NCBI GenBank assembly: GCA_020725585.1
Contig: DYES01000088.1
Span: 1 to 34,904 of the forward strand
DNA from: Desulfovirgula sp.
GTDB taxonomy: Bacteria; Bacillota; Desulfotomaculia; Desulfotomaculales; Nap2-2B
Direction: 5' to 3'
DNA: 34,904 nt
Made by a program: the position numbers and the translations under genes. Of this stretch, positions 16,456 to 32,837 are shown one piece after another. Numbering within the stretch: position 1 is the first letter of the stretch; every line of letters starts with the position of its first letter. Under the pieces are notes generated by a model that saw only the letters and a program-made list of their open reading frames with translations, was not told the DNA's origin and made no database searches.

Positions 16456-16484
16456 CCAAAACCCCCCATTTTTTAGGAACAAGA

Positions 16485-16512
16485 GCGGTACGCCCCAAAC
16501 GGGGAGTACCGC
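16485..16512 (-). promoter_or_regulatory. Intercistronic hairpin upstream of enoate reductase copy 1
   Basis: GCGGTAC and GTACCGC pair over 7 bases, extended after one mismatch by CCCC/GGGG with an AAAC loop. It lies between the hydantoinase stop and the reductase ribosome site. There is no clean T-tract after it on the minus strand, so RNA processing, stabilisation or partial attenuation is more likely than full termination. Confidence 0.5.
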
Positions 16513-16572
16513 CTGCCCGAAAACCAGGTTTTCCCACGGCAATTCGTCTTTCCGGGGACAGCCGATCCTACC

Positions 16573-17958
16573 CTACACGTTCCGCTTCAAGTAGCGGCCC
16601 CGTCCCTTGGAACCGGTCACCCGGTCCTTTTCCATGATAATTTCGCCGCGGCTGACGGTAAACACGGGCCACCCTTTCAGCTTCATCCCGTCGTAAACCG
16701 AGTAATCGCTGGCCCCGAATATTTCCGGCTTGACTTCCCGTTCCCAATCGAGGTCCACGATGGCCAGATCCGCGTCGGCCCCCACCTTAATGGCCCCCTT
16801 TTGCGGATACAGATGGAATGCTTTCGCCACCGCGGCGCTGGTCACCTCAGCAATTGTTTCCAGGGAGATCCCCCGGCGATGGTAGCCTTCGCTGATCAAG
16901 ACAGGTAGAATCATCCCCGCGCTCGGGAATCCCGGGAGGGTTTCCCACACCCCGCTGCCCTTGCTAAATTTCTTGGCCAGGTTGCTTGGGCAATTGTCTG
17001 AGCCTATCGTCTGGATCAGGCCTTTACGGATGCCCTCCCAGAGTTTTTCCGCGTCGGCGGCGGTATGAATGGGCGGGTTAACTTTGCCCAGCAGGCCGCA
17101 GGGGGATTCTTCGGTCAGTGCGAGGTAATGAGGGCAGGTTTCCACTGTCACTCCCGAACTGGCTAACTCCGCTTCTTTCTCCAGCAAATCCACGCTTGAA
17201 CCGGCGCTTAGATGAACTACGTACATATTGCCCCCGGCGATCTTGTTCAAGTAAAGCGCACTCATTAAAGAAACAGTTTCTACGTAATCGGGGCTGGTCT
17301 GCGCAAAGTAGCGGAGGGAATTCTCGCTGCCTCGCGCTTTCACTTCCCTGGCGATCTTGCGCTGCAAATCCATATCCTCGCAATGCACGCACAGCAACAG
17401 TTTGTCGGAAATGGCCGCAAACTGCTGTAAAATCTCCATCATGTCCGCAGAATCGAGTGTCAGGGGATCGGAAACCCCGAAGATGCGGGCCACATCATCC
17501 TGGTAGTTGCGGTAAAACTTGTAAGAGGTAATCCCGAACTTCTCGATATACGTCTCCACTTCCGCCAGATGTTGCTTGGTAAGCAGGCCCAGGCTAAAGG
17601 CAAAGTCTATATAGCTGTTTGCTTCGCCCGCGGCAATCAGCCCCGGGGCGGTTTCCTGGTAAGATTCTTTGCCCCGGTAATAGTTTACGATGGAAGTAAT
17701 TCCGCCAATGGCACAGGCCCTTGTCTCTGCCTCGAAATCCACCGCTAGATCGTTATAGATGCCAATATGAACGTGCGGGTCAATTGCCCCTGGAAAAATG
17801 TACAACCCGGAGGCGTCCAGGGAGGCTTCCGCTTCGGGCCCCGCGCCTGGAGCATAGATACCCACAATCTTGCCGCCCGCCACGCCGATGTCCGCCCTAT
17901 CCACGCCTACCCCGGGAATTACCGCGTAGCCGTTTTTAACCAGCAGGTCAATTGCCAT
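16573..17958 (-). CDS. Dihydropyrimidinase/hydantoinase-family cyclic amide hydrolase
   Basis: This family opens cyclic amides and imides (dihydropyrimidines, hydantoins, succinimide-type rings, allantoin) with a binuclear metal centre. With Met at 17958 as residue 1 the ligands are all visible: His62 and His64 (PHVHIG), the lysine that is carboxylated, Lys147 (TSYKFYRN), His192 (VHCED), His249 (VVHLSAG) and Asp321 (IGSDNCP). Length is 461 residues, normal. AGGAGG lies upstream of the ATG. It is encoded directly after an isochorismatase-type amidase, the classic pairing of ring opening followed by hydrolysis of the linear amide or carbamoyl product. The protein is therefore catalytically competent by motif; whether the ring is a hydantoin, pyrimidine or cyclic imide cannot be settled. 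Confidence 0.93.
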   Translation of the reverse strand: MAIDLLVKNGYAVIPGVGVDRADIGVAGGKIVGIYAPGAGPEAEASLDASGLYIFPGAIDPHVHIGIYNDLAVDFEAETRACAIGGITSIVNYYRGKESYQETAPGLIAAGEANSYIDFAFSLGLLTKQHLAEVETYIEKFGITSYKFYRNYQDDVARIFGVSDPLTLDSADMMEILQQFAAISDKLLLCVHCEDMDLQRKIAREVKARGSENSLRYFAQTSPDYVETVSLMSALYLNKIAGGNMYVVHLSAGSSVDLLEKEAELASSGVTVETCPHYLALTEESPCGLLGKVNPPIHTAADAEKLWEGIRKGLIQTIGSDNCPSNLAKKFSKGSGVWETLPGFPSAGMILPVLISEGYHRRGISLETIAEVTSAAVAKAFHLYPQKGAIKVGADADLAIVDLDWEREVKPEIFGASDYSVYDGMKLKGWPVFTVSRGEIIMEKDRVTGSKGRGRYLKRNV

Positions 17959-17970
17959 CCTTCTCACCTC

Positions 17971-18660
17971 CTACTTTCTCAGGCTCTGAAAGTAATCTAG
18001 AACCTTTTGGGTATTAATCACATCGCAGTACTTCATCCAGAGGTCCAGCAGGGAAGCTTTGTGGGAAAGTTGAATGCGGTCGTACACCGCGTCCTCCACC
18101 ATGGCGACGTTATAGCTGCGGCTCACCGCGTCCACCGCGGTCGCCCGGCAGCACCCGCTGGTTGAACCCCCCACGATGATGATGGTATCAATGCCCAGCT
18201 TGATCAGGTAGCTCTGGATGGGCGTGCCGTAAAATACGCTGGCGTACGCCTTGTCGATGACAATTTCATCATCCCCGGGTTCAAGCTCCTTAATGATCTG
18301 GGTTTCCGGCCTGCCGTCCAAAAATTTGGATTGATCCCGGTCGGTTTTTAAACTAAAACCGTCAAAAGCCAGGGTTCTCTTCTGCACGTTGCGGGTGAAA
18401 AACACCGGCACACCCGCCTCCTTGGCGGCCGCCCTGATCCTCTGGATGTTGCGGACCGCCGCCCAGGCGCTGGCGCCGCCCCCGGCCGGCCACCTCTCCA
18501 GTTGCTGCTCGATGGGCAGGTCTTCGCCCACATAGTTATACTGGACGTCGATGATCAACAGCAGCGGTTTTTTGCCAAGGCCCCTGCTCTTCCCGTAACC
18601 TCCCTTTTGAATTACCAGACGATCTACTTCCGAGAGTAGATCTTCCCATATTCTTGCCAT
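17971..18660 (-). CDS. Isochorismatase-family amidohydrolase (N-carbamoylsarcosine/maleamate amidase-like)
   Basis: Cysteine hydrolases of this family cleave linear amides such as N-carbamoylsarcosine, maleamate, biuret and nicotinamide. The triad is clear: Asp38 (LLIIDVQ), Lys137 (VIDKAYASVFYGT) and Cys170 (STSGCCRAT), the last being the nucleophile that normally reads SGCVRA. Length is 229 residues. The basic GYGKSRGLGKKP before the first strand is like that of carbamoylsarcosine and maleamate amidases. AGGAGG lies 7 bases ahead of the ATG. The hydantoinase starts 12 bases after its stop, so the two are expressed together and probably act in sequence on one substrate, releasing ammonia or ammonia plus CO2. 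Confidence 0.9.
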   Translation of the reverse strand: MARIWEDLLSEVDRLVIQKGGYGKSRGLGKKPLLLIIDVQYNYVGEDLPIEQQLERWPAGGGASAWAAVRNIQRIRAAAKEAGVPVFFTRNVQKRTLAFDGFSLKTDRDQSKFLDGRPETQIIKELEPGDDEIVIDKAYASVFYGTPIQSYLIKLGIDTIIIVGGSTSGCCRATAVDAVSRSYNVAMVEDAVYDRIQLSHKASLLDLWMKYCDVINTQKVLDYFQSLRK

Positions 18661-18711
18661 TTAATCTCCTCCTCCGTACTGTATTTGCTGTATATTTATT
18701 TGTCGTCCGGG

Positions 18712-20655
18712 TCAAATACCCAGGGCGATACGCAACCCGTCGTGGATGGCGTCAGGTGTTTTCCGCGGCGCCAGGCAGTTGCCGACCAGGTACATCTCCA
18801 GCGCGGGCATTTCCTGCTCCAGTTGCAGGGCCAAGGCGTTGTTGGCAATCATATGCTCCACCACCACTACCAGGTCAAACTCCAGTTCGCGCTCCCAACC
18901 CTCGTGGTCAATGAAAAACCGTTTTCCTTCGGCCCGCAGGATCTTGCCTTTTGATATAGACCGGACACCGTACTCACTTAAACGAAGCCAGGCCATCGTC
19001 CTGTTGATGCTTTCCATGTCGTACCCTACTTCCGCTTCTTCAGTGAAAAGCACTACCTCGGCACCCAGCACGGCCAGCTTTTCCCCGATTCCAATGGCTT
19101 TATTGTGATAATCTTTGTCGATTACCAGCACCCGCTTGCCCCGCAGATCTTCTTCCTGGAGGTCCAGGGCCTCCGTTACGTTCAGGTGGGGCACTTCCGT
19201 CGTGTAAACAACCGAAGGCCTTCCATAAGTGGCCCCCGTGGCGACCACCACCGCCTCGTAACCCCCTTCCCGGATATCCCGCACCGTACACTCCCGGCCC
19301 AGAAGCACCTGCACGCCCAGCTGTTTAACCTGGCGGATCTGCCAGCGCGTTACCCCAAACAGTTCCTGGCGGTTGGGCACGTCAAAGGCGCCGCGCCGGA
19401 GCATCCCGCCCAACTCACGGTCTTTTTCGTACAGGGTAACCCGGTGCCCCCTTTCCCGCAACACCCGGCCCGCTTCCAGACCAGCAGGACCTCCGCCGAT
19501 AACGGCCACCTTCTTTTGTCGGGTGGCCGGCCTAATCTGGTACTCCCTTTCTTTCCCCACCCGCGCGTTCCCGAAGCAGGAGATGGGCGCGCGGTAGCGG
19601 AGCCGCTGAAAGCACCCCTGAAGGCAGGCGATGCAGGGGCGGATATCGTCGAGACGCTCCTCCCTGGCCTTATTGGGCATTTCCGGATCGGCAATCGTCG
19701 CCCGGGCCATCCCCACCAGGTCAGCATGCCCCTCGGCCAGGATTTTCTCGGCCAGAACGGGGTCATTGATGCGGTGGGAAGTATAAACCGGTATCTTGAC
19801 CAGCCTTTTAATTCCCGAGGCCAGATAAACCGCAAACCCCAAAGGGAAGTCCATATTGGGAAAAGTAGGCGGGTAATTAAGGTTATGCCCTAGACTGAGC
19901 CCGATGTAATCCAGGCCCTCTTTTTCGAGCTCCTGGCAAATTTGCTGGTAGTCTTCCTGGGTGAGACCGCCGTCAACCAGCTCGTCGCCGTTTATGCGGA
20001 TGCCCACGATCTTCCCGTCAGCCAGCGCGCGCACTGCCCGAATTACTTCCCGGGCAAAGCGCAGGCGGTTTTCAAAAGAGCCGCCGTATTCGTCGGTGCG
20101 TTGGTTGTAAAGGGGCGAAAGGAACTCGTGGATCAGGTACCCGTGCGCCAGGTGCACCTCCACGCCGTCGTAACCGGCCTGCAAACACCGCCGGGCCGCC
20201 TGGGCGTACATCTGGACCATTTCTTTCACTTCGCGGGTGGTCAGCTCGTGAGGCACCTCTTTTTTAATGGGGTCAGGAATGGGTGACGGGGCCACGATCG
20301 CCTGCTGGGTGTCGACCGAGGTCATTTCCCGGCCCATGTGGTGAAGCTGGGCTATAATCACCGTGCCGTAGGCTTTTACGCGCCTGGTCAATTCCGTAAG
20401 CATGGGGATTACTTTATCGTCGAACAGGTGGACGACATATTGGGACTGGGCGGAATTAGGCGCCACGGCCATGGACTCCGTCACCATCAAGCCCAAGCCG
20501 CCTCTGGCCCGCTCTTCGTGATAAGCAATCTGGCGCTCGGTAGGAAAGCCGTCGGTGGAAGCCATGTGGGTGAGGTGGGCGGTCGCCATAATCCGATTTT
20601 TCACAACACAACTGCCTATTTTCAGGGGTGTAAAAAGGTGCTGAAAAAGGGCCAT
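18712..20655 (-). CDS. Fe-S/FMN/FAD enoate reductase (2,4-dienoyl-CoA reductase/OYE-type), copy 2
   Basis: This second copy has 647 residues, with Met at 20655 as residue 1. The substrate-site motif is HLAHGYL (168-174), followed by QRTDEYGGS (185-193). The cluster cysteines are 341, 344, 348 and 360 (CIACLQGC then PISC), and the Rossmann loop AVIGGGPAGLEAG follows near 390. It differs from copy 1 at many positions, so the two are old paralogues rather than a recent duplication. It follows the LeuD-like gene and precedes the amidase. Two reductases in one operon suggest two C=C reductions, or one protein working on the ring and one on a linear product. Start chosen for the AAGGAG/GAGGAGG upstream; the frame also runs to 20697. 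Confidence 0.93.
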   Translation of the reverse strand: MALFQHLFTPLKIGSCVVKNRIMATAHLTHMASTDGFPTERQIAYHEERARGGLGLMVTESMAVAPNSAQSQYVVHLFDDKVIPMLTELTRRVKAYGTVIIAQLHHMGREMTSVDTQQAIVAPSPIPDPIKKEVPHELTTREVKEMVQMYAQAARRCLQAGYDGVEVHLAHGYLIHEFLSPLYNQRTDEYGGSFENRLRFAREVIRAVRALADGKIVGIRINGDELVDGGLTQEDYQQICQELEKEGLDYIGLSLGHNLNYPPTFPNMDFPLGFAVYLASGIKRLVKIPVYTSHRINDPVLAEKILAEGHADLVGMARATIADPEMPNKAREERLDDIRPCIACLQGCFQRLRYRAPISCFGNARVGKEREYQIRPATRQKKVAVIGGGPAGLEAGRVLRERGHRVTLYEKDRELGGMLRRGAFDVPNRQELFGVTRWQIRQVKQLGVQVLLGRECTVRDIREGGYEAVVVATGATYGRPSVVYTTEVPHLNVTEALDLQEEDLRGKRVLVIDKDYHNKAIGIGEKLAVLGAEVVLFTEEAEVGYDMESINRTMAWLRLSEYGVRSISKGKILRAEGKRFFIDHEGWERELEFDLVVVVEHMIANNALALQLEQEMPALEMYLVGNCLAPRKTPDAIHDGLRIALGI

Positions 20656-20717
20656 CTCCTTAAAAACCTCCTCTTTTTGGCAAGTGGACCGCAACACTAT
20701 TTAATCCAGCCAAAAGA

Positions 20718-21230
20718 TCAGCCGCCCTTATTTTTATTTTTTGCTATTTCGCGCTCCAGGTAAGGCACCAGCCCTCCGGCGTTCAAGATCTCCATCACGT
20801 GCGCAGGCAGGCGGGTGGCTTGGTACGCGGTACCCCGGGTAAGGTTTTTAACTACACCGTGTTTCAAATCTATTTCCAGCTCGTCACCGGTCGCTACCTC
20901 GTCTGCCTGCGGACATTCCAGCACGGGCAGGCCGAGGTTTACGGCGTTGCGGAAGAAAATCCTCGCGAAAGAACGGGCTACCACCGCTCCCACCCCGGCG
21001 TATTTAATGGCCGCCGGGGCGGTTTCCCGGCTGGAACCGCAACCAAAATTGCTTCCTCCCACGATGATATCTCCCGGTTGAATTTTTTTGGGCAGTTCTG
21101 GATCGATCCCTTCCATCACGTGCCGGGCCATTTCCTGGTTGGACAGCTTTAAATACTTGCCGGGAGCGATTAAATCGGTGTTTACGTTGTCCCCAAATTT
21201 CCATGCTCTTCCCCGGATCGCATCAGGCAT
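20718..21230 (-). CDS. Aconitase-family hydro-lyase, small subunit (LeuD/DmdB-like)
   Basis: This is the swivel-domain subunit of a two-part hydro-lyase of the isopropylmalate/homoaconitate/dimethylmaleate type. The 170 residues show WKFGDNVNTDLIAPGKYL near the start and the substrate-gripping GGSNFGCGSSRE (59-70), both hallmarks of the small subunit. It starts 5 bases after the large-subunit stop with GTGAGGA upstream. No leuA, leuB or leuC-type biosynthetic partner lies nearby; instead a PEP-mutase-family lyase and enoate reductases flank the pair. A catabolic hydratase, such as dimethylmaleate or maleate hydratase, is therefore more likely than leucine synthesis. Confidence 0.9.
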   Translation of the reverse strand: MPDAIRGRAWKFGDNVNTDLIAPGKYLKLSNQEMARHVMEGIDPELPKKIQPGDIIVGGSNFGCGSSRETAPAAIKYAGVGAVVARSFARIFFRNAVNLGLPVLECPQADEVATGDELEIDLKHGVVKNLTRGTAYQATRLPAHVMEILNAGGLVPYLEREIAKNKNKGG

Positions 21231-21235
21231 ATTCC

Positions 21236-22498
21236 TCACTCCTCCAAATAGACGCGGGGATCGACAATTTTCCCGGCCAGGGCGGAGGCGGCCACCGTCG
21301 CTGGGGAAGCCAGGAAAACTTCGGCCTCTGGGCTCCCCATCCGACCTTGAAAGTTCCTGTTGGTAGAGGCCACGCATCTCTCCCCCGGGGCAAGGATACC
21401 ATTGCTCAGGCCCGCGCAAGGCCCACAGGCAGGGGGCAAAATGGTGGCTCCCGCCTCCACCAGGATGGCCAGTACCCCATCTGCGGCGGCGCGCCGGAGA
21501 ATCTCACGCGAAGCCGGCGCAACCAAAAAACGCACCCCCGGCGCAACCCGGCGACCGCTGACCACTCGCGCCGCCGCCGCCAGATCGCTGTACTTGCCGC
21601 CTGTGCAGGCGCCGATCAGCGCCTGCTGCACGGGCAACTCCGGCAAGGAAGCCGCTTTCTCCACGTTATCCGGGCTGTGCGGACAGGCAACAAGGGGCTC
21701 CAACTCCTCTGCCCGGCAGCGAATAACCTGGCTGTAGCACGCGTCCGGATCGCTAAACAGCGGGGAATACTCGACGCAGGTGCGTTGGGCCAGATATGCA
21801 AAGACCGTTTCGTCAGGTTCAATAATGCCGGTTTTTGCTCCCATTTCGATGGTCATGTTAGTAAGCACGATGCGCTCATCGATATTTAACCGGCGCACCG
21901 TATCCCCGGTGAATTCAACCACCTTGTAAGTAGCCCCTTCCAGGCCCAGCTGTTTAATGTTGTATAAAATCATATCCTTGGCAGACGTGGCGGGAGGCAA
22001 ATTTCCTTCCCAGACAATCTTAATGGTCTCCGGCACCTTCAGCCAAACGCTCCCCTTCACCAGAACACCCAGCATGTCGGTGGAGCCAAGGGCAATGGCC
22101 AGCGCCCCCAACGCACCTCCCGTGCAGCTGTGCGAATCACCGCCCACCATTAAAGTCCCAGGCAAAACGTACCCTTTTTCAATAGGTACGATATGGCAAA
22201 TACCTTCGAGCTCGTGGTACTTTTGGATCCCTTGCCTTCTTACCCATTCCCGGGTAAGGGCGAGGATGCCGGCCTCAATGTCGTTGCAGGCGGGCACAAA
22301 GTGATCCGCCACCACTGTGACCCGGTCGCTGTTCCAAACACCGGTACCCAGGCGCTCCAGGTTGGCGGCAATGCGCCGGGGGCCGCCGGAATCGTTCATC
22401 ATCACCAGATCCACTTCTACCCAGATAATTTCCCCAGGTCTGACTTCACTTTTCCCGCTTGCCCGGGCAAGAATTTTTTCTGCAACCGTTTGGCCCAT
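21236..22498 (-). CDS. Aconitase-family hydro-lyase, large subunit (LeuC/DmdA-like)
   Basis: This is the catalytic [4Fe-4S] subunit partnering the small subunit encoded next. With Met at 22498 as residue 1, three cluster cysteines are visible: Cys298 (GACTGGK), Cys358 and Cys361 (PACGPCAG). The catalytic-site block VGGDSHSCTGGALG (118-131) and DHFVPA (65-70) are also in place. At 420 residues it has the archaeal/homoaconitase-like length, not that of enterobacterial LeuC (~466). The usual VMxHD is VMMND here, replacing a conserved histidine by Asn35, which suggests an altered substrate. AGGAGG lies 6 bases before the ATG. The gene follows the lyase gene directly, supporting hydration of an unsaturated dicarboxylate before C-C cleavage. 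Confidence 0.91.
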   Translation of the reverse strand: MGQTVAEKILARASGKSEVRPGEIIWVEVDLVMMNDSGGPRRIAANLERLGTGVWNSDRVTVVADHFVPACNDIEAGILALTREWVRRQGIQKYHELEGICHIVPIEKGYVLPGTLMVGGDSHSCTGGALGALAIALGSTDMLGVLVKGSVWLKVPETIKIVWEGNLPPATSAKDMILYNIKQLGLEGATYKVVEFTGDTVRRLNIDERIVLTNMTIEMGAKTGIIEPDETVFAYLAQRTCVEYSPLFSDPDACYSQVIRCRAEELEPLVACPHSPDNVEKAASLPELPVQQALIGACTGGKYSDLAAAARVVSGRRVAPGVRFLVAPASREILRRAAADGVLAILVEAGATILPPACGPCAGLSNGILAPGERCVASTNRNFQGRMGSPEAEVFLASPATVAASALAGKIVDPRVYLEE

Positions 22499-22540
22499 TA
22501 TCTTCCTCCTTGGCAGAAGTAAAAGTGCGTATCGTTCAGG

Positions 22541-23407
22541 TCATTCCTGCATGTAGCGCTTTTCCAGCTGTTGCATTTTATTTAACTCCACTAGTTCGTT
22601 GATTTCTTGAAAGGTAAACATGCGCTCCAAAAAGCCCCTGGTGGTTCCGGTGGCGTAAAGCTCCTGCATTACTTCGCTCACCGCGCGGGCCAGCGACCTG
22701 ATCGCCGTGTTGGGAAAAATGACGATTTTGTAACCGATTTGTTCCAGTTCCTGAACGGAGAGCAAGGGCGTTTTTCCGCCCTCCACCATGTTGGCCAGCG
22801 TAGGGACACGGATAGCCGAAGTAATCCGGCGCATTTCCTCTATAGATTCAGGGGCTTCCACAAAAATTACGTCGGCTCCGGCCTCCGCATAGGCGGCGGC
22901 TCGCTCTAACGCATCTTCCAGCCCGTTTACCGCCCGGGCATCAGTGCGGGCGATGACTACAAAATGATGATTGGTGCGGGCATCCAAGGCCGCCTTAATT
23001 TTCCCGACCATTTCCTGGCGAGAAATCAGTTGCTTACCCAGCAAATGCCCGCAGCGTTTCGGAAAGGCCTGGTCTTCCAGCTGGATGGCCGCCACCCCCG
23101 CCCTCTCATAAGCGCGTACGGTGCGCATCACGTTTAAAGCATTTCCGTAGCCGTTGTCTCCGTCCGCAATCACCGGAATGTTTACCGCGCTGCAAATATT
23201 CTCTGCCCGCGCGACCATTTCCGTCATGGTAATAAAGCCCATATCGGGCAGGCCCAGGGTGGTGAAGGAAACTCCCGCCCCGGTCAGGTACAAAGCCTGA
23301 AAGCCGGTCTTTTCAATAATTTTGGCCACCAACGCGTCGGCGGCTCCGGGCGCTACCAGAATGCCTTCCTTTGTCAATAAATCCCGCAGCTTCTTTGCCT
23401 GCAGCAC
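22541..23407 (-). CDS. Isocitrate lyase/PEP-mutase-family C-C lyase (methylisocitrate or dimethylmalate lyase-like)
   Basis: Members of this family cleave substituted malates or citrates to a 2-oxo acid plus a carboxylate, or act as phosphonomutases. The 288 residues show the metal-binding ADGDNGYG (81-88) and AAIQLEDQ (106-113). The catalytic-loop motif KRCGHLLGK (117-125) has Cys119, as in the lyase branch (2-methylisocitrate lyase and 2,3-dimethylmalate lyase) rather than the mutases. The start is GTG at 23407 with GGAGG 7 bases upstream. It sits between the ABC importer and the LeuCD-like hydratase. The pairing of a LeuCD-like hydratase with this lyase matches the end of nicotinate fermentation, which gives propionate and pyruvate. 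The exact substrate is not proven. Confidence 0.88.
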   Translation of the reverse strand: MLQAKKLRDLLTKEGILVAPGAADALVAKIIEKTGFQALYLTGAGVSFTTLGLPDMGFITMTEMVARAENICSAVNIPVIADGDNGYGNALNVMRTVRAYERAGVAAIQLEDQAFPKRCGHLLGKQLISRQEMVGKIKAALDARTNHHFVVIARTDARAVNGLEDALERAAAYAEAGADVIFVEAPESIEEMRRITSAIRVPTLANMVEGGKTPLLSVQELEQIGYKIVIFPNTAIRSLARAVSEVMQELYATGTTRGFLERMFTFQEINELVELNKMQQLEKRYMQE

Positions 23408-23451: not shown

Positions 23452-24156
23452 CTACATTCCCAGATAGGCTTTTTTCAGGTGCTCGTTGCGCAACAATTCA
23501 TGACCCGTGCCATGGAGAACCACCTTACCCTGCTCAAGAACGTAGCCCCGGTCCGCCATGTTTAACGCGTGGTGCACGTTTTGTTCAACCAGCAAAACGG
23601 TTACACCCTGTACTTTAATCTGCTTGATGGTTTCAAACATGGTCTGCGTGAGCAAGGGCGAGAGCCCTATTGAAGGCTCGTCTAAGATGAGCAGCCTGGG
23701 GTTGGCCATCAGACCGCGTCCGATCGCCAGCATCTGCTGCTGGCCGCCGCTCAAAGTACCGGCCCTCTGCTTAATTTTTGCTTTTAAATCCGGAAACAAA
23801 TTAAAAACTCTTTCCAGATTGGCTTTTTTGTGGGGCTTAGCGGCTTTGGGATAAGCGCCCATCTCCAGGTTTTCTAGTACCGAAAGGTGGGGGAAGAGTT
23901 TTCTGCCTTCAGGCACCTGCACCAACCCGCGCGCAACGATTTGGTAGGGTTCGAGATTATTAATTTTTTCGCCCACAAACTCAATGGTTCCGCTCTTTGT
24001 CCTTAACAGCCCGGAAACGGTTTTTAAAAGGGTCGTCTTTCCTGCTCCGTTCGCCCCCACAAGAGAAACCAACTCCCTTTCCTTAACTTCCAGGTCCAGG
24101 CCGCGGATGACCAGAATGTCGCCGTATCCTGCGCTAAGTCCGGATATCTTAAGCAA
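23452..24156 (-). CDS. livF: ABC transporter ATP-binding protein LivF
   Basis: This is one of two ATPases of a branched-chain amino-acid-type (HAAT) importer. It has the Walker A GANGAGKTTLLK (34-45), the LSGGQQQ signature (about residue 135), and Walker B LLILDEPSIGLSP. The 234-residue length and the switch region HHALNMADRGYVL are typical of LivF. The start is TTG at 24156 inside the livG end (8-base overlap), with GGAGGT 8 bases upstream. The lyase gene follows after 44 bases, tying transport and catabolism into one operon. HAAT importers also carry urea, amides and organic acids, so leucine need not be the substrate. Confidence 0.95.
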   Translation of the reverse strand: MLKISGLSAGYGDILVIRGLDLEVKERELVSLVGANGAGKTTLLKTVSGLLRTKSGTIEFVGEKINNLEPYQIVARGLVQVPEGRKLFPHLSVLENLEMGAYPKAAKPHKKANLERVFNLFPDLKAKIKQRAGTLSGGQQQMLAIGRGLMANPRLLILDEPSIGLSPLLTQTMFETIKQIKVQGVTVLLVEQNVHHALNMADRGYVLEQGKVVLHGTGHELLRNEHLKKAYLGM

Positions 24157-24874
24157 GCATGGCCACCTCCCCCAGGTAAGCCTCGATTACCTTTTGATTG
24201 GAAGATACTTCCTGGGGCGTGCCCTCGGCCAGCTTTTCGCCGTGGTGCATCACAAACACCCGGTCAGAGAGGTTCATTAAGGCATGCATGATGTGCTCAA
24301 TAATAAAAATAGTCACGCCGCTCTGTCTAATCTTCCTGATCAACTCCATCACTTCCGTAACCTCAGAGGGAGTGAGACCCGCCATCACTTCGTCCAGCAA
24401 CAAGAGCTTGGGCTGGGTGGCCAGGGCGCGCGCCAGCTCCAGGCGCCTCTGGTCGGCGATAGTCAACTCTTTTACGCGGATGTCTTTTTTTTCTGCCAAC
24501 CCCACAAAAACCAGCTTCTCCAAAGCCAGGCGCGCCGCCTGCGCGTACGGCCCGACCCGGTTAAAGGCGCCCACCATCACATTTTCCAAAGCGGAAAGAT
24601 TGCCAAAGGGCTTCACAATTTGAAACGTCCTGGCCAGGCCCCTCTGGCAAATGGTATGGGGGCCCAACCCCGTAATCTCCTGGCCGTCGAATATGATGGA
24701 CCCTCGGTCGGGGACATAAAATCCGGAAACAAGGTTAAAGAGGGTGGTTTTTCCGGCGCCGTTAGGGCCGATGAGTCCAAATATCTCTCCTTCGTTAACC
24801 TCTAAAGAAATATCCTTTACCGCCATTAATCCTGAAAACGATTTATTTACCTGCTGAACGACGAGCAACGGCAC
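24149..24874 (-). CDS. livG: ABC transporter ATP-binding protein LivG
   Basis: This is the second ATPase of the importer. Walker A GPNGAGKTTLFN (about 36-47) and Walker B KLLLLDEVMAGLTP are both clear, with a signature variant ELTIADQRRLELARAL in place of LSGGQ. That variant is normal for LivG, which has the TxxxQRRLEIARAL form. Length is 241 residues. The GTG start touches the livM stop (TAG then GTG). The C-terminal extension (EGTPQEVSSNQKVIEAYLG) is as in other LivG proteins. Confidence 0.95.
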   Translation of the reverse strand: MPLLVVQQVNKSFSGLMAVKDISLEVNEGEIFGLIGPNGAGKTTLFNLVSGFYVPDRGSIIFDGQEITGLGPHTICQRGLARTFQIVKPFGNLSALENVMVGAFNRVGPYAQAARLALEKLVFVGLAEKKDIRVKELTIADQRRLELARALATQPKLLLLDEVMAGLTPSEVTEVMELIRKIRQSGVTIFIIEHIMHALMNLSDRVFVMHHGEKLAEGTPQEVSSNQKVIEAYLGEVAMLA

Positions 24875-25912
24875 CTAAAAGCCCCCCTTTTTAACCCCGG
24901 GTTTGTTTTCGACAACGGTCGTCCTGCGCTTGAAGATAATCCGGCGGCGCCAGACTTTTTGAAGAAGCCCGACGATACCCTCAGGAAGGTAAATAATCAC
25001 CACAATAATAATTAACCCGTACACGATCATGCTGATCCCGCTGGAAAGCAGGCCGCGTGTCAGTTCGGCAATCGGCGTAAGGACCAGTGCACCCACCACC
25101 GGCCCCCAGACTGTGCCCACCCCGCCGATAATGGCCGGTGTCAGGATGTTTACGGAAACAGCGGTGCCAAAGGCAAGTTCTGGATCGAGATAGGAATAAA
25201 ATTGGGCGTAAAACGTTCCCCCGAGAGCAGTCAAAAAAGCGCTGATGCTAACCGCAATCAGTTTATATTTAAAAGAGTTGACCCCCATGGCCTCGGCCGC
25301 TTCTTCGTTTTCCCGGATGGCCACCAGGTATAAGCCGAGTTTCGAGCTGCCCAGTTTATAGACCAGAAAAGTAATCAAGGCAGCCATCACGAGAATTACG
25401 TAGTAGTAATGAACTGTTTCCGGAAATTGAAAATTGGCCGGTTTGTTGCCGAGGGGAATAAGGATGCCCATGGCGCCGCCCACAAACCGCCAGTTGAGAG
25501 CGAGAACGCGTAAAATTTCGGCAAAAGCCAGGGTAGCCAGAGCAAAGTAATGGCCCTTGAGCTGGTAGCGAAAAGCCAGAAAACCTATAAAAAGACCCAT
25601 CAAAGCGGCCACCGCTCCGCCCGCGAACATTCCGACCCAGGGCGTAAGGCCGGCTTTAGTAAATAAAAGAGAAGAAGTATACGCACCCAAACCAAAAAAA
25701 GTAGCGTGACCAAACGAAAACTGACCCGCCAACCCGCTCATGATATTCCAGCATTGCGCCAGATAGATTCCGTAGGCGGTAATAATCAGCAGATTTAAAT
25801 AATAGGAATCAATCACCTGGGGCAAAAGTGCCGCCGCTAGTAAAGCCAACAGGGCCGCAGCAAGAGAAACGACCCGCTTTTTCTTTTTCGCAAGCGTCCT
25901 TGTCTCAGCCAT
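24875..25912 (-). CDS. livM: Branched-chain-type ABC permease LivM
   Basis: This is an inner-membrane permease of the HAAT importer with about nine hydrophobic segments and the family patterns LAQCWNIMSGLAGQFSFGHATFFGLGAY and GALVLTPIAELTRG. I chose the ATG at 25912 (345 residues), which overlaps the livH stop by 8 bases with GGAGGG upstream; a longer frame to 25981 lies inside livH. The KKKKR motif near the N-terminus fits the positive-inside rule. Confidence 0.94.
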   Translation of the reverse strand: MAETRTLAKKKKRVVSLAAALLALLAAALLPQVIDSYYLNLLIITAYGIYLAQCWNIMSGLAGQFSFGHATFFGLGAYTSSLLFTKAGLTPWVGMFAGGAVAALMGLFIGFLAFRYQLKGHYFALATLAFAEILRVLALNWRFVGGAMGILIPLGNKPANFQFPETVHYYYVILVMAALITFLVYKLGSSKLGLYLVAIRENEEAAEAMGVNSFKYKLIAVSISAFLTALGGTFYAQFYSYLDPELAFGTAVSVNILTPAIIGGVGTVWGPVVGALVLTPIAELTRGLLSSGISMIVYGLIIIVVIIYLPEGIVGLLQKVWRRRIIFKRRTTVVENKPGVKKGGF

Positions 25913-26783
25913 TGCTGCGCCCTCCTCCAAACAAACCGGTCGGCCTAACCAGCAAAATACCGACAAAAAGCAGATAGACAACCATCTCTTTTAGACTGCC
26001 GGGCAGAAGCAGCGCGCTTAGCGATTCGGTAAGGCCAATAATCAAACCACCTACCAAAGCGCCGCCAAAGTTGCCCAACCCACCGAGAATAGCCACCACA
26101 AAAGCCCGCAGGAGGAAAACGTGACCCACCCCGGGCGACACGAAGTAAAAAGGCATGATCAAAGAGCCCGCTGCCCCCGCACAAGCGGCGCCAATCCCGA
26201 AGGCAATTCCGTTAATGTGCCGAACGTTCACACCTACCAGGTGGGCCCCCTCCCTTTCCTGGGAGGCAGCCTGGATAGCCCTTCCAAGTTCGGTTTTCTT
26301 GAGAACATAATACAAGACGGCAGTAATCGCGAGAGTAAAAACAAAGGCAAGCAATCTCGGCTTATTCAAGACCACCGATCCCAATAAGATACCCTGCTCC
26401 AGCCACTCCACCTTAATTGACCGAAAGTCGGGGCTCCAAAGCACCAGGGCAAGATTTTCCAGAACCAGCATAATTCCGAGGGTTAAGAGAAGCTGGTTGT
26501 GCTGTGGCGCATTGAGAATAGGGTCGAGGAAAAATCTTTGCAGAATAAATCCGACTAAAAATAGAGCACATATACTGGCCAGGATACTCACATAAGGGTT
26601 GATTCCCAGAAGGGTAAACGCCCAGTAAGTCACATACATGCCTAACATCATAAGAGCGCCGTGGGCAAAATTTACGATCTGCATTACGCCGAAAATCAAG
26701 GTAAGCCCCACAGCGACCAGGCCGTAAACCCCTCCCATTAACAACCCGTCGGTAATTGCCTGAAAAATTGCACTGATGTTCAT
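25905..26783 (-). CDS. livH: Branched-chain-type ABC permease LivH
   Basis: This is the second permease, 292 residues, with the LivH pattern YGLVAVGLTLIFGVMQIVNFAHG near the N-terminus (about 20-42) and AFVVAILGGLGNFGGALVGGLIIGL near the C-terminus. GGAGG lies 7 bases before the ATG. A 150-base gap containing a hairpin separates it from livK. Confidence 0.95.
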   Translation of the reverse strand: MNISAIFQAITDGLLMGGVYGLVAVGLTLIFGVMQIVNFAHGALMMLGMYVTYWAFTLLGINPYVSILASICALFLVGFILQRFFLDPILNAPQHNQLLLTLGIMLVLENLALVLWSPDFRSIKVEWLEQGILLGSVVLNKPRLLAFVFTLAITAVLYYVLKKTELGRAIQAASQEREGAHLVGVNVRHINGIAFGIGAACAGAAGSLIMPFYFVSPGVGHVFLLRAFVVAILGGLGNFGGALVGGLIIGLTESLSALLLPGSLKEMVVYLLFVGILLVRPTGLFGGGRSNG

Positions 26784-26847
26784 TATTTTCCTCCGTTTCC
26801 GAACAGGTGACCCCCCGACAAAAACCGCGGCTTTGGTCCGATTGACG

Positions 26848-26880
26848 GTGCGGAGCGGAACTTACCGGCCCGCCCCGCAC
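26848..26880 (-). promoter_or_regulatory. Hairpin between livK and livH
   Basis: GTGCGGAGCGG and CCGCCCCGCAC form an 11-bp stem with one mismatch and an 11-base loop. It is in the gap after livK, without a T-tract on the minus strand. Such hairpins after a binding-protein gene often stabilise its message and let it outnumber the permeases; that role here is inference. Confidence 0.45.
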
Positions 26881-26933
26881 TCAGTCCTTTTATTGCTATT
26901 CTTGCTTTTTTACGCAGCACTCTTAAGCAATGT

Positions 26934-28172
26934 TTATTGCTGCGGCATAGGGAAGATTAGTTTTGCTTCCGCGTATTCTCCAGGGTACACGACGAGCTTC
27001 TTACCGTTTTGGATTTGGGTAATTACTCCAGCTGCGTTAACGTTTTCGCCAGCCTCATTAAACCTGATCTCTTTGTTTGGCAAAATGTGGTCGGCAAAGT
27101 TTGTTTTGGTCAAAGCCTCCCTGATTTTTTCCTTATCAGTGGAGCCCGCCCGCTCCAGAACATCCGCGATCAGCTTGCCTACTACATAACCGTAGACGGC
27201 GTGACTGCTCAACGGCGAACCGTATTTTTGCTGGTATTTCTCCATCACTTCTTTAGACTTGGAATTCTTCGGGTTGTGGCAGTAGTTCACGTCCATTATA
27301 TATTCCGCATCTTTACCCAGTTCATCGATAAATTTGGGGTCGCTGAAGGCACCGTTGGCAATTCCGATAATGGCCTTCACCTTTACCTTCTGTTCCTTCA
27401 AGGTCTTGACCATTAAGGTCTGGTCGCGGTAGTAACCGGTGCCGATCAAAATGTCCGGCTTGGCGGCAGCCACTTTGTTAATCTCCGCGGTAAGGTTGGG
27501 ACTCTGGTTCGAATACGGTACACGCGCCACCAGTTTTAGTCCGGTTTCCCCGATGTGTTTTTCGATGTAGTCGGCAAAAGTAGTTCCAAACAAGGTATCC
27601 TCATGCATTATCGCGGCCGTTTTAATATCGGGGGTAACCAGTTCCTTCATATAGTCGATGAAATTTTTAGCAAAAACGTTGGCGTTTGGTTGTACGCGGA
27701 AACTATACTTGAATCCCCGTTCTAAAATGTTCGGAGCAGAAGCGATAGTAACCACAAAAGGTGTTTTTAGCTTTTCAGCTTCCTGAGTAGCTGCAAAGGT
27801 AGCACTGCTTGTATAGCATCCGGTAAGAATAACCGCTCCCTCTTTTACCAACCGCTGCACTTCCGTCACCGCTTTTTCCGGTGAACCCTGGTTATCGCCG
27901 TCAATTAATTTCAACTTGGCGCCGCCCAGGGATTTAATACCGCCGGCGGCGTTGACCTCTTCGAAGGCCAGCTCTAAAGCGTTACGGATGGCTTTGCCTT
28001 CATAGGCAAGATTTCCAGTTAACGGGTGAATAGCGCCGATTTTAATTTCGGTTGCCTGCTGGCCGGCTTTGCCGCTTTCCTTTGGCTTCTCCTTGGTTCC
28101 GCAACCCGCCAGCAAAGTCCCTGCCAACAGCAGGGAGACAAAAAAAGACACTAATCTGAAAGCTTTCGACAT
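26934..28172 (-). CDS. livK: Branched-chain-type substrate-binding lipoprotein LivK
   Basis: This is the extracellular binding protein of the importer. A 23-residue signal ends in the lipobox LLAGC (Cys24). The periplasmic-binding-protein type 1 fold follows, with IKIGAIHPLTGNLAYEGKAIRNALELA and DGDNQGSPEKAVTEVQRLV. Length is 412 residues. AGGAGG lies 9 bases before the ATG. It is the first gene of the import and catabolic operon, about 160 bases after iclR. Sequence alone cannot tell amino acid from amide or organic acid ligands. Confidence 0.94.
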   Translation of the reverse strand: MSKAFRLVSFFVSLLLAGTLLAGCGTKEKPKESGKAGQQATEIKIGAIHPLTGNLAYEGKAIRNALELAFEEVNAAGGIKSLGGAKLKLIDGDNQGSPEKAVTEVQRLVKEGAVILTGCYTSSATFAATQEAEKLKTPFVVTIASAPNILERGFKYSFRVQPNANVFAKNFIDYMKELVTPDIKTAAIMHEDTLFGTTFADYIEKHIGETGLKLVARVPYSNQSPNLTAEINKVAAAKPDILIGTGYYRDQTLMVKTLKEQKVKVKAIIGIANGAFSDPKFIDELGKDAEYIMDVNYCHNPKNSKSKEVMEKYQQKYGSPLSSHAVYGYVVGKLIADVLERAGSTDKEKIREALTKTNFADHILPNKEIRFNEAGENVNAAGVITQIQNGKKLVVYPGEYAEAKLIFPMPQQ

Positions 28173-28330: not shown

Positions 28331-29188
28331 TTACTTTTTAGAACATTGTTCCGTATCTTGGGAAAATAAGAAGCCGGTCTGGAGGGTCCCCGTGGAGGGT
28401 TTCCAGCCCATCCGGTACGAAATTTCTCTGCTTGCCTCCACAGTCAGGCGGCAAATATACTCCACTCGCTCCGGAGTAAACCGGCTGTTGGGACCGGAAA
28501 CGGTAATCCCCGCCGCCAACTGACCAGTGTGATCAAAGATGGGTGCCGAAACAGAAGCCGCTTCCAGGTTGCGCTCACCATGAGTGTAGGCGTATCCTTG
28601 CCGGTATATCTCTTGCAAGTCCTGCAGTAACTTTTCCTTTTCTACAGCCTGGCCCCGGGCGTTGCGAGCCCCTTTGAGATTTTCAAGGACGCGCAGCACC
28701 TCTTCTCGGGGAAGAAAAGCCAGCAAAACCTTGCCTGAAGCACCCAGGTAAAGCGGGTTATGCATTCCGATTTGGACAAAATTCCGGATATCTTCCACGC
28801 TTTCTACCTTTTCGATACAAACCCGCTCACCGTTGCTGGCCACATTTAAAGTAACGGTCTCCCTGGTTTTTTCGCTCAATTCCCGCATCAGGGGGAGGGC
28901 AACCGAGCGCAATTCGATCTGGGAAATGACAATGTTCCCTAGATCGAAAAGCTTCAACCCCAGGCGATACTTTTGATTTTGCTCATTCTTACAAACAAGA
29001 CCCCGGTACTCCAGAGTTTTCAGGAGGCGAAAAACATTACTTTTATATAATCCCAGCCTTTCACTCAACTCCGTTATACCCAGTTCCGGCTCCTCTCGAG
29101 AAAAGCAGAACAAAATGTCTATACACTTATCAACTGCCCGGACGATGTTTCGATCCGGGACATCCTTACCCTTTAGTTTGCTTTTCAA
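28331..29188 (-). CDS. IclR family transcriptional regulator
   Basis: This is a 285-residue regulator. The N-terminal winged helix-turn-helix (about residues 13-75, with LGITELSERLGLYKSNVFRLLKTL) is followed by the IclR ligand domain (LRSVALPLMRELSEKTRETV near 99; LGASGKVLLAFLP near 150; YAYTHGERNLEAASVSAPIF near 217). IclR proteins usually control catabolic genes in response to a pathway intermediate. The start is TTG at 29188 with AAGGAGGG 6 bases upstream. A palindrome (29211-29227) lies right ahead of the ribosome site, and the same motif occurs twice before etfA. Autoregulation and control of etfAB are therefore likely. Control of the liv/catabolic operon is not shown by a motif copy there. 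Confidence 0.95.
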   Translation of the reverse strand: MKSKLKGKDVPDRNIVRAVDKCIDILFCFSREEPELGITELSERLGLYKSNVFRLLKTLEYRGLVCKNEQNQKYRLGLKLFDLGNIVISQIELRSVALPLMRELSEKTRETVTLNVASNGERVCIEKVESVEDIRNFVQIGMHNPLYLGASGKVLLAFLPREEVLRVLENLKGARNARGQAVEKEKLLQDLQEIYRQGYAYTHGERNLEAASVSAPIFDHTGQLAAGITVSGPNSRFTPERVEYICRLTVEASREISYRMGWKPSTGTLQTGFLFSQDTEQCSKK

Positions 29189-29210
29189 GAAAAACCCTCC
29201 TTCCCGTTGT

Positions 29211-29227
29211 GTTCCATAATATAGAAC
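29211..29227. promoter_or_regulatory. Candidate IclR operator upstream of iclR
   Basis: GTTCCATAATATAGAAC is a 17-bp palindrome with one arm mismatch. It fits the consensus GTTCTAT-N3-ATAGAAC shared with two sites before etfA. It overlaps the probable iclR promoter (TTGACG about 35 bases further upstream on the minus strand) and sits just ahead of the ribosome site, as expected for autorepression. Confidence 0.65.
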
Positions 29228-29336
29228 CCTTTTCTATTTTTTTTAAACATACCCACGTCAACTTGCTATGACCAAAATACCACCCGCATCTTCCGTCTCG
29301 TCAACTATTGCCCTGTCAACGGTCGAATGGAGCAGG

Positions 29337-30218
29337 TCAATGGTTCTTTTCCGTACTGAATGGTAAGAAGTGATTTTTAGATAAATATTTATATAACTTT
29401 TCAGCCCCCGAAAGATTTTCTTCCTTTTGCTCTGCCTCTTTTTTCAAATTTAGACCGCCGGAGATGATTAATTTCATTTTTTCCGCGGCAGAAAGAGAAT
29501 CGTCGGGAGTAAATATCTTCTTGGGCCTGGTCCTGGAAACAGATAATTCAACAAAAAACTCGTTATCTTCCTCTAATAATAAGGAGTATTTTATTTCGCT
29601 AATTTTACGTTTTGCGGTTACATAGCGAACCATGCTGGGATGCCGGGGAATTTCCCGCGAGCGCTCGATGGTAACAACAGAAGGAAGTGGACATTCTACA
29701 ACCTCCTGATCTCCTTTCCCGATATGCCTGTATATCCACACCACAGAACAATTTTCTGCTGGCTCAATGTGCCAGGAGCGGGTTACCACCGGCAGGTTAA
29801 GAAACTCAGCTAAGGCTACGCCCAAAAAGCCTGTGGCCATATCGTCAGACCTTACTCCGCATAGGATCAAGTCAAATTCTCTTTCTTTGAGCACATCGGA
29901 AAGCACCCTGGCCAGCTGGATGCTGTTGATTTTATTGGGATCTGGAATAGCCATATTTATCCAGATTAATTCCTCGGCTCCCATACTATGAGCAATCTGC
30001 AAAGCTTTCCTGCTATCTTCGTTACCAACAGCGATTGCGGCTATAGAACCATATCCCAAGGTCTTTTTAATCTGCTGGGCTTCTTCTAAGGCCGCCAAAT
30101 CATAACTGTTGATTTTTTTTCTTTTGTTGCGCTCATCAAAGATTTCTTTCAAAGATGCTGCCTTATAGGACGGAAAAAAAATCTCTGTAACCATTTTAAC
30201 AAGCACAATTATTCGCAC
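29337..30218 (-). CDS. etfB: Electron transfer flavoprotein beta subunit
   Basis: EtfB binds AMP or a second FAD and pairs with EtfA to pass electrons between acyl-CoA dehydrogenases and the respiratory or ferredoxin pool. The 293 residues show MRIIVLVKMV at the start, INSYDLAALEEAQQIKK (the usual NxxDxxALEEA), and FDLILCGVRSDDMATGFLGVALAEFLNLP, which corresponds to the nucleotide-binding block. It departs from typical EtfB by the SDDMATG sequence where DGDTGQ is usual. The GTG at 30218 has AAGGAAGGT 7 bases upstream and gives the family N-terminus; a TTG at 30278 would add a repetitive leader. It follows etfA by 63 bases. Confidence 0.88.
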   Translation of the reverse strand: MRIIVLVKMVTEIFFPSYKAASLKEIFDERNKRKKINSYDLAALEEAQQIKKTLGYGSIAAIAVGNEDSRKALQIAHSMGAEELIWINMAIPDPNKINSIQLARVLSDVLKEREFDLILCGVRSDDMATGFLGVALAEFLNLPVVTRSWHIEPAENCSVVWIYRHIGKGDQEVVECPLPSVVTIERSREIPRHPSMVRYVTAKRKISEIKYSLLLEEDNEFFVELSVSRTRPKKIFTPDDSLSAAEKMKLIISGGLNLKKEAEQKEENLSGAEKLYKYLSKNHFLPFSTEKNH

Positions 30219-30236
30219 AGCGGCAACCTTCCTTTT

Positions 30237-30274
30237 AGATAAATAATTTGTTTTCGATAGATAATAATTTGTTT
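30237..30274 (-). repeat. Short imperfect direct repeat between etfA and etfB
   Basis: AGATAAATAATTTGTTT (30237-30253) and AGATAATAATTTGTTT (30259-30274) are two copies differing by one base. They lie in the gap between etfA and etfB and look like a small tandem duplication. Confidence 0.55.
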
Positions 30275-30281
30275 CCAACCG

Positions 30282-31301
30282 TTACTGATCTGGTTGTTTG
30301 TCAATTTCTTTCCGGTTTTTCGCAAGTGCTTTTGCCTTATTTATAAAATCCGTTAAAATAGTAGGCGCATCCCCCACAATTTTAAGATCGGCCAGTTGAA
30401 AGATGGGAGCGTTTTTATCAATGTTAATGGCAATTAAATTCCTGGTGCCTTTTAACCCCATTGTAAGTTGCATGGCGCCGGATACACCGCAAGAAATAAG
30501 CAACTTAGGCGAAACCTTCTTCCCGGTTTGGCCTATCTGTCTGTCTAAAGTAATCCAGCCCTTGTCACGGGCAACTCTGGTGCCGGCCACAGACCCCCCC
30601 AGCAAATCAGCCACTTCGTGGATCAATTGAAAATTATCCCGAGAACCCATTCCACCGCCACCCACGATCAGGATATCCGCATTCACAATATCAACAGTTT
30701 TTGGGTCCGCTTTAATTTTTGTGATTATCCTCGTGGGTTCTTCTAGAGGGGAGAGATCTTTTGTAATTTCGACGATATTTGGCACTTTAGGCAATTTAGC
30801 TTTTTTTATATTGAATTGCTCAAGCTGTGTTGTAGCAACCAATACTTTTTCTCGAGCAATGATTTTTGCGTCAATTGTATTGTTTAATATTGTTCGGTAA
30901 ACAACCAGCCGGTTTTGTTCATCAAAACCTATTTCCACAAAATTCGGAAAGAGGGGCACACGTAGCTTAGCAGCAACCAGTGCCGCCAGGTCATGACCCC
31001 AAATTGTCCCGGCGGCGAAAATGGCCGCGGGCTTTTCTCTTTTGGATAAGTCAGCAACATTGGCGGCAATTTTATACGCTGACTTACCGCAATCCCCGCT
31101 AAAATAAATTACCTGCTCGATCCCATGTTCAGCCAAAACTTTATTTGTTTGCGCAACTTGATCATTTTTAAGGGCCAGGGCAACCAGTTTGCCTCTTCTT
31201 TTTTGCAACAGCCGATAAAGCTCAGAAATCAATTCAAGGGAAGGCTCTATAACTTGATCATCTTCATATTCAACAACTACCCAAAAAAGTTTATCCGCCA
31301 T
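30282..31301 (-). CDS. etfA: Electron transfer flavoprotein alpha subunit
   Basis: EtfA carries the FAD-binding domain. The C-terminal half shows the family chain: VGGGGMG where VGGRG is usual, SVAGTRVARDKGWI, QIGQTGKKVSPKLLISCGVSGAMQ, NIDKNAPIF and ADLKIVGD. The N-terminal domain has GTIWGHDLAALVAAKL. Length is 339 residues with the ATG at 31301, 6 bases after GGGGTG. No acyl-CoA dehydrogenase lies in the window, so its electron partner is elsewhere. The promoter region carries two IclR-type palindromes. Confidence 0.92.
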   Translation of the reverse strand: MADKLFWVVVEYEDDQVIEPSLELISELYRLLQKRRGKLVALALKNDQVAQTNKVLAEHGIEQVIYFSGDCGKSAYKIAANVADLSKREKPAAIFAAGTIWGHDLAALVAAKLRVPLFPNFVEIGFDEQNRLVVYRTILNNTIDAKIIAREKVLVATTQLEQFNIKKAKLPKVPNIVEITKDLSPLEEPTRIITKIKADPKTVDIVNADILIVGGGGMGSRDNFQLIHEVADLLGGSVAGTRVARDKGWITLDRQIGQTGKKVSPKLLISCGVSGAMQLTMGLKGTRNLIAINIDKNAPIFQLADLKIVGDAPTILTDFINKAKALAKNRKEIDKQPDQ

Positions 31302-31385
31302 AAATTGCACCCCAAAAGACTATAATTTTATAGTTCTATCCAGGCAAACCAGCAGGGCTTGCTTTAAAAGAAACTCACGAGGCTG

Positions 31386-31420
31386 TTCTATGTAATAGAA
31401 TACTGTTCTATTATATAGAA
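31386..31420 (-). promoter_or_regulatory. Tandem IclR-type operators over the etfA promoter
   Basis: Two 15-bp palindromes, TTCTATGTAATAGAA (31386-31400) and TTCTATTATATAGAA (31406-31420), have centres 20 bases apart, two helical turns. A perfect TATAAT lies in the upstream one on the minus strand (31410-31415), with only a weak -35. This is the architecture expected for repressor dimers binding side by side over a promoter. Confidence 0.68.
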
Positions 31421-31448
31421 AAGAAAAAATTAAGTCTTAACATTAAAC

Positions 31449-31488
<40 letters not shown>

Positions 31489-31634
31489 TGTTTGTTATTT
31501 CCCCTATCATAATTTATTATAAATATCCTGTCAATAACATAATGAACAAAACCGGATAATTCTCTTCATCTCTGCCGAGAATTTTATTTCTCTCTTAACA
31601 CCTGTAGCATTTTAATGCACCTTAAATATTTTTA

Positions 31635-32837
31635 TTAGATTACACCCTCGGCTTTTAGTTTTTCAATTTCCTCTCCAGTATACCCCAGCCGGCTAAGGAT
31701 TTCTTCGTTATGCCGCCCCAGCAGCGGCGGGGGCAGCCTGTACTGGATGGACATTTCCGAAAAGTTGAGGGGGTTGCCCAACACCTTTACTTTCCCTGCT
31801 TTTTCATGCTCCATTTCAACAACCATCCCCCGGTGAACAACCTGAGGGTGGGAAACTACTTCGGAGATCGAATTAATCATTCCACAGGGCACTTTGTGCG
31901 CATTTAATTTATCAACCCAGTAGCTTGCTTCTTTCTGGAGAAACATTTCTGCCAGCAAGCGGTCCAATTCTTCGCGGTTCTCGACCCTTTTTTCGTTTGT
32001 GGAAAACTTCGGGTCGTCGGCAAATTTTAGCTCCAGGGCAGAGCAAAAACGCTGCCAGATGGCGTCGTTGCCCACGGCCAGGATAAAGTATTTATCTTTT
32101 GCCCGGTAGGCCCGGTACGGAACGATGGAAGGATGAGCCGAGCCCATCCGGATGGGATCTTTCCCCGCAGCAAAGTAATTGGAGGCCATATAGGTCAACC
32201 AGGAAACTTCTGTATCAAGGAGGGAAATATCGATATACTGGCCCTGGCCTGTTTCCTTCTTTGCCATCAAGGCGCTCAAAATACCGATTACGGCGTACAT
32301 CCCCGCCCCGATATCAACCAACGCCACCCCGATCCGCACGGGTTCCCCGTCCTTTTCCCCGGTTATCGACATCAGCCCGCCTTCCCCCTGCATCAAAATG
32401 TCGTACGCCGGGTAGTCGCGGTAGGGTCCGTCCTGACCGTACCCAGAAATTGAACAGTAGATGATCCCGGGGTTAATTTCCCTGATTTTTTCGTAGTCCA
32501 ACCCCAGGCGTTTGACGGTGCCGGGCAAAAAATTTTCGATCATGACGTCCGCTTCTTTGGCCAGCTTGTAGATGATTTCTTTTCCTTTTTCTGATTTTAA
32601 GTTCACCGCAATACTTTTTTTATTTCTATTGATGCTTAAAAAATAAGCGCTTTCTCCCTCGATGAAGGGAGGACCCCACGCTCTCGTCTCATCACCCACG
32701 CCGGGCATCTCCACCTTGATGATCTCGGCGCCTAAATCACCGAGCAACATGGTGGCAAAGGGACCGGTTAAAACGCGGGAAATGTCGAGGACTTTGACGC
32801 CTTCTAGGGGCAACCTTGCTTCTTTTTTAGTCGGCAT
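31635..32837 (-). CDS. CaiB/BaiF family CoA-transferase (class III)
   Basis: Class III CoA-transferases move CoA between carboxylic acids through an aspartyl anhydride. The 400 residues show GVKVLDISRVLTGPFATMLLGDLGAEIIKVE at the N-terminus, NRNKKSIAVNLK, ENFLPGTVKRLGLDYE, and the catalytic Asp146 in YDILMQGEGGLM. The C-terminal PPPLLGRHNEEIL is also typical. It lies between the etf pair and a ThiS/MoaD-like gene, with a CoA ligase further upstream, so activation of a carboxylic acid is the theme here. The acyl substrate is not evident; formyl, carnitine, benzylsuccinate and mesaconate-type enzymes all share these features. Confidence 0.94.
   Translation of the reverse strand: MPTKKEARLPLEGVKVLDISRVLTGPFATMLLGDLGAEIIKVEMPGVGDETRAWGPPFIEGESAYFLSINRNKKSIAVNLKSEKGKEIIYKLAKEADVMIENFLPGTVKRLGLDYEKIREINPGIIYCSISGYGQDGPYRDYPAYDILMQGEGGLMSITGEKDGEPVRIGVALVDIGAGMYAVIGILSALMAKKETGQGQYIDISLLDTEVSWLTYMASNYFAAGKDPIRMGSAHPSIVPYRAYRAKDKYFILAVGNDAIWQRFCSALELKFADDPKFSTNEKRVENREELDRLLAEMFLQKEASYWVDKLNAHKVPCGMINSISEVVSHPQVVHRGMVVEMEHEKAGKVKVLGNPLNFSEMSIQYRLPPPLLGRHNEEILSRLGYTGEEIEKLKAEGVI

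Follow-up and report, generated by a model that had tools for sequence, protein, structure and literature searches.

Conserved three-box sites before iclR and etfA in Desulfovirgula sp. are probable operators of the neighbouring IclR-family regulator

The stretch of DNA analysed here (the window; 34,904 nt, contig DYES01000088.1, Desulfovirgula sp., assembly GCA_020725585.1) carries palindromic sites around a single IclR-family gene, and these are very probably operators through which the IclR encoded at 28331-29188 controls its own gene and the neighbouring cluster. The sites are nearly unique in the genome, and related sites are conserved at iclR, livK, and etfA in relatives.

All genes of the locus lie on the minus strand, from a CaiB-type CoA-transferase gene (31635-32837) through etfA (30282-31301), etfB (29337-30218), and iclR to livKHMGF (23452-28172) and a group of catabolic genes (14497-23407). 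The electron transfer flavoprotein (ETF) alpha and beta subunits were assigned by PF00766 (7e-28) and by PF01012 (2.1e-21) and translation, respectively, and a GTG start is proposed for etfB. The regulator, 285 aa long from a TTG start behind GGAGGG, has the two domains of the IclR family, an N-terminal HTH_IclR (PF09339; 1.5e-14) and a C-terminal effector domain (PF01614, IclR_C; 1.1e-40). LivK (26934-28172) is a branched-chain amino-acid-type ABC substrate-binding protein (PF13458; 5.8e-57), and the other transporter genes, livHMGF, occupy 23452-26783. The catabolic genes encode, in order, a PEP-mutase/methylisocitrate-lyase-like protein, aconitase-type large and small subunits, an OYE, an isochorismatase-like protein, a hydantoinase-like amidohydrolase, and a second OYE. 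A G091 gene (L085) with 80% identity to the CaiB gene adjoins a different IclR gene.

A three-site IclR motif, GTTCTAT-N3-ATAGAAC, had been proposed in a preliminary description of this DNA and is borne out by the counts. One copy lies before iclR (29211-29227; GTTCCATAATATAGAAC) and two lie before etfA (31385-31401, GTTCTATGTAATAGAAT; 31405-31421, GTTCTATTATATAGAAA); each has one mismatch, and none of the three is perfect. The two etfA palindromes are centred at 31393 and 31413, exactly 20 bp apart as first described, and Tandem Repeats Finder reports the pair as a 20-bp repeat. At ≤3 mismatches, the window holds four matches versus 0.74 expected, a number reached in 0 of 100 shuffles. The genome-wide scan that had been called for was run on the own genome (2,367,152 bases in 92 contigs) and showed that the motif is not frequent at random: at ≤1 mismatch, it returned the three window sites only. 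This genome is 83% complete, so further sites may be missed. Two additional matches at two mismatches (C54 and C91) equal the level of the reversed-pattern control, our background for palindrome scans; of these 2-mismatch matches, L005 (on C91) is within a long open reading frame and L004 (on C54) just short of one, neither with a clear promoter. The 59 relatives that we also scanned hold ~0.3 scattered copies per genome, again the level of the control. A looser pattern, GTTCT-N7-AGAAC, occurs genome-wide at the frequency expected by chance. One relative (G046) has four identical perfect GTTCTATATAATAGAAC copies (C6, C8, C18, and C22), probably a repeated element. Within the window, a lone perfect box, GTTCTAT, lies in the etfA leader at 31333-31339, 52 bp from the proximal operator.

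Because the operator cores are AT-rich and resemble -10 elements, they might be palindromes that arose around promoters by chance and regulate nothing. We regard this as hardly credible, given three copies in 2.2 kb around one regulator gene, the shuffle and whole-genome counts, the conserved position of the sites in relatives, and a match found blindly before etfA of another genome (see below).

Alignment of the window sites with those of relatives brought out an extra alternating box 3 bases from the palindrome. On this evidence, the fuller binding unit appears to be a 25-bp three-box operator, RGAAC-N3-RTTCY-N7-RGAAC; the palindrome first described is real but, as a unit, needs extending to three boxes, and to four at etfA. 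A three-box scan of the own genome at ≤1 mismatch found the etfA and iclR sites only (control, 0). The etfA operator (31385-31409, minus strand; AGAAC-AGT-ATTCT-N7-AGAAC), which contains the palindrome at 31385-31401, is the sole 0-mismatch match, and the iclR operator (29211-29235, minus strand; AGAAA-AGG-GTTCT-N7-GGAAC), already found by the palindrome scan, has one mismatch. The distal etfA palindrome, TTTCTATATAATAGAAC (31405-31421, minus strand), detected by the palindrome scans and as part of the tandem repeat, contains TATAAT and brings the etfA tandem site to four alternating boxes across 31385-31421. Four relatives carry the three-box pattern, exact or with one mismatch. We also searched with a model, R1, built only from six sites of other genomes that were known before the three-box scan of Clostridiales bacterium PH28_bin88 (hereafter PH28). 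At E≤10, its single match in the own genome is the window iclR operator, with a modest E-value (0.35 per genome). A further R1 match falls within etfB (29735-29757) and was taken as chance.

Comparison with PH28, whose IclR is 77% identical to that of the window, led to several observations. First, the liv and catabolic genes are kept in order at 75-87% identity (livK, 78%; livHMGF, 75-82%; catabolic genes, 78-87%), and operators stand before iclR (GTTCTATTGTACAGAAC) and between iclR and livK (ATTCTGTAGAACAGAAC). Second, the PH28 ETF subunits share only 41% and 35% identity with those of the window, and their genes are located downstream, flanked by those for the aconitase small subunit and the first OYE. 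Third, a blind genome scan placed an exact three-box match (C43:189080-189104) 17 bp before the start codon of this etfA. Hence, etfAB is moved or replaced relative to PH28, and both copies have a three-box operator. That the operator is kept at etfA despite this change provides good support for ETF being part of the pathway. Together with the operators at the relatives' iclR genes, the site at the relocated and diverged PH28 etfA supports what had been proposed at the outset, namely an IclR regulon motif with autoregulation and control of etfAB. Other three-box matches in PH28 (C62, C90, C91, and C77) are inside predicted reading frames and were set aside. An intergenic three-box-like site (L100; G113:C10:93178-93202) lies upstream of a 3-dehydroquinase-like gene followed by a TPP-enzyme-like gene, and is possibly the site of another IclR or a chance match.

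In G070 and G066, two genomes from the same taxonomic order, iclR orthologs of 46-47% identity are followed by etfA, etfB, an OYE, aconitase large and small subunits, and a lyase; the G070 locus additionally has isochorismatase-like and amidohydrolase genes. Each locus has one exact GTTC-N9-GAAC palindrome, directly before iclR, with an exact three-box match there. In G067, whose IclR is more distant (38%), one operator precedes iclR and another an aconitase-type gene. G192 was rejected as a cluster relative, sharing an isochorismatase-like gene and an IclR only, without the cluster. Because we picked the relatives' iclR sites by eye from a GTTC-N9-GAAC pattern scan near iclR, the evidence from them is not fully blind, whereas the PH28 etfA match is.

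The own genome has eight IclR-family matches, and related IclR proteins bind similar boxes, so the sites could in principle belong to another IclR paralog or to another regulator. We consider this improbable: in the own genome, the sites are confined to this locus, in other genomes they travel with the genes of this ortholog, and the upstream regions inspected for two own-genome paralogs show different boxes (L088).

Neither the CaiB gene nor livK had been credited with a copy. For CaiB this is confirmed, with no palindrome match at ≤3 mismatches before the gene. For livK it holds for the 17-bp palindrome but not for a two-box variant, CGGAAC-AAT-GTTCTA (28339-28353, minus strand), which overlaps the iclR stop codon and has a degenerate third box. 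Of the 15 positions of this element, 13 fit the published group 2 IclR consensus, and it is the third-best R1 match in the window. Its stretch CGGAACAATGTTCT (28340-28353, minus strand) agrees at 13 of 14 positions with the left-hand portion of the livK operator of PH28, which has the same location; such a match was reached in 5 of 200 shuffles. With only two good boxes, we regard it as a putative weak or half operator. Since a two-box site stands where PH28 has an exact three-box livK operator, the liv and downstream catabolic genes are probably in the regulon.

The strongest sigma-70-like candidate in the promoter scan, P1 (TTGACA-17-TATGAT, 11/12; 31506-31534, minus strand), lies ~90 bp upstream of the etfA operators, with a predicted start near 31499. 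The earlier placement of the palindromes over the etfA promoter is thus not established. With P1 as the best etfA promoter, the operators would sit in the leader, ~80-115 bases into the transcript, and blocking at etfA would be by roadblock, or else a weaker promoter with the TATAAT of the distal palindrome would be used. A perfect (ATTT)10 microsatellite lies between P1 and the operators (31449-31488), and its length could vary between strains. At iclR, the best -10 candidate (TATATT, 9/12) shares bases with the window operator. In PH28, G070, G066, and G067, the iclR operator lies between the predicted start and ~13 bp past it, as would be expected of an autorepressor.

PcaU and PobR, both IclR proteins, can activate. 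A similar activator or dual regulator could recruit RNA polymerase from the etfA sites to a downstream promoter while repressing iclR. A second etfA promoter candidate (TTGCCT-17-TATAGT, 31347-31319) lies downstream of the operators and would place them upstream of its -35, and the three-box layout resembles that of PcaU, which cannot bind without its third box (PMC8222616). This candidate, however, reaches only 9/12, close to what the scan yields by chance (13 promoters found, 9.2 expected), and its leader would be just ~11 nt long; moreover, the relatives' iclR operators cover or closely follow the start. Where the etfA promoter lies is ambiguous, and we find activation unlikely. Repression is the probable mode of action, favoured because the relatives' iclR operators are at or just after the start and the downstream etfA promoter is weak.

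We suggest that IclR binds the three alternating boxes, and that the second in-register palindrome at etfA provides a four-box site that would fit two dimers or one tetramer on one DNA face. IclR would most likely repress iclR and etfAB by sitting on or just downstream of their transcription starts, and the liv transporter and downstream catabolic genes would probably be repressed likewise, with the extent of the operon inferred. IclR would leave the DNA in response to an inducer, probably the substrate once imported, or an intermediate. We rejected a larger regulon, as palindrome and three-box scans of the own genome gave no other credible site. The predicted regulon is accordingly local, made up of iclR and etfAB, with the liv and downstream catabolic genes as probable members.

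What is less usual is the uncharacterised catabolic cluster that IclR would govern. Enzymes encoded at 14497-23407 include an N-carbamoylsarcosine-amidase-like hydrolase, a LeuCD/DmdAB-type dehydratase, a methylisocitrate/dimethylmalate-lyase-like enzyme, two OYE-type reductases, and a hydantoinase-like hydrolase, a set that points to a route in which the ring of a cyclic imide or N-heterocycle is opened and the product is then hydrated and cleaved at a C-C bond. Nothing bearing directly on an imide pathway turned up in a literature search. Tentatively, IclR and its three-box operators may mark out a conserved and so far undescribed regulon for anaerobic catabolism. Such a regulon might serve the breakdown of a cyclic imide or related nitrogen heterocycle, with the ligand sensed by IclR. 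Its proposed members are the liv importer, the two OYE-type reductases, the hydantoinase-like and isochorismatase-like amidohydrolases, the isopropylmalate/dimethylmalate-type dehydratase, the methylisocitrate/dimethylmalate-type lyase, and ETF. In this way, an uncharacterised catabolic cluster common to several anaerobic Firmicutes gains a regulator with a precise operator and a local regulon, and the substrate can now be sought via what releases IclR.

Every architectural feature of the window sites is already covered by the description of Suvorova and Gelfand (2021; PMC8222616), who gave motifs for IclR group 1 (GKTYCRYW3-4RYGRAMC) and group 2 (TGRAACAN1-2TGTTYCA), three-box sites in 32 orthologous groups, and, in 94 groups, tandem sites spaced by 18-22 nt, with GTT-11-AAC motifs overrepresented in Firmicutes. 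The window sites fit group 1 in geometry and outer boxes: they are 17-bp GTT...AAC palindromes with a 3-bp centre, typical of Firmicutes, and the 20-nt centre-to-centre spacing at etfA falls in the tandem range of 18-22 nt. They differ in the fifth box base, which is T (GTTCTAT) in most window arms and C in the consensus; the G070 site, GTTCCATTGTAGGGAAC, is nearer to that consensus. As in the three-box sites of PcaU, PobR, and HmgR, a palindrome is joined by an alternating extra box, here 3 bp away, so that one pair of boxes is group-1-like and the other group-2-like. Unlike those sites, the one at window etfA comprises four boxes, as two full palindromes; ligand and target genes are also different. 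PcaR of Corynebacterium glutamicum (GTTCGC-N3-GCGAAC; PMC8222616) has near-identical geometry and outer bases, but it regulates protocatechuate genes and differs in the inner bases. TtgV, which serves as a model for DNA recognition in the IclR family (PDB 2xro) and was matched through PDB entries 2xrn/2xro (6.3e-12), belongs to the same family but is a distant relative that regulates efflux.
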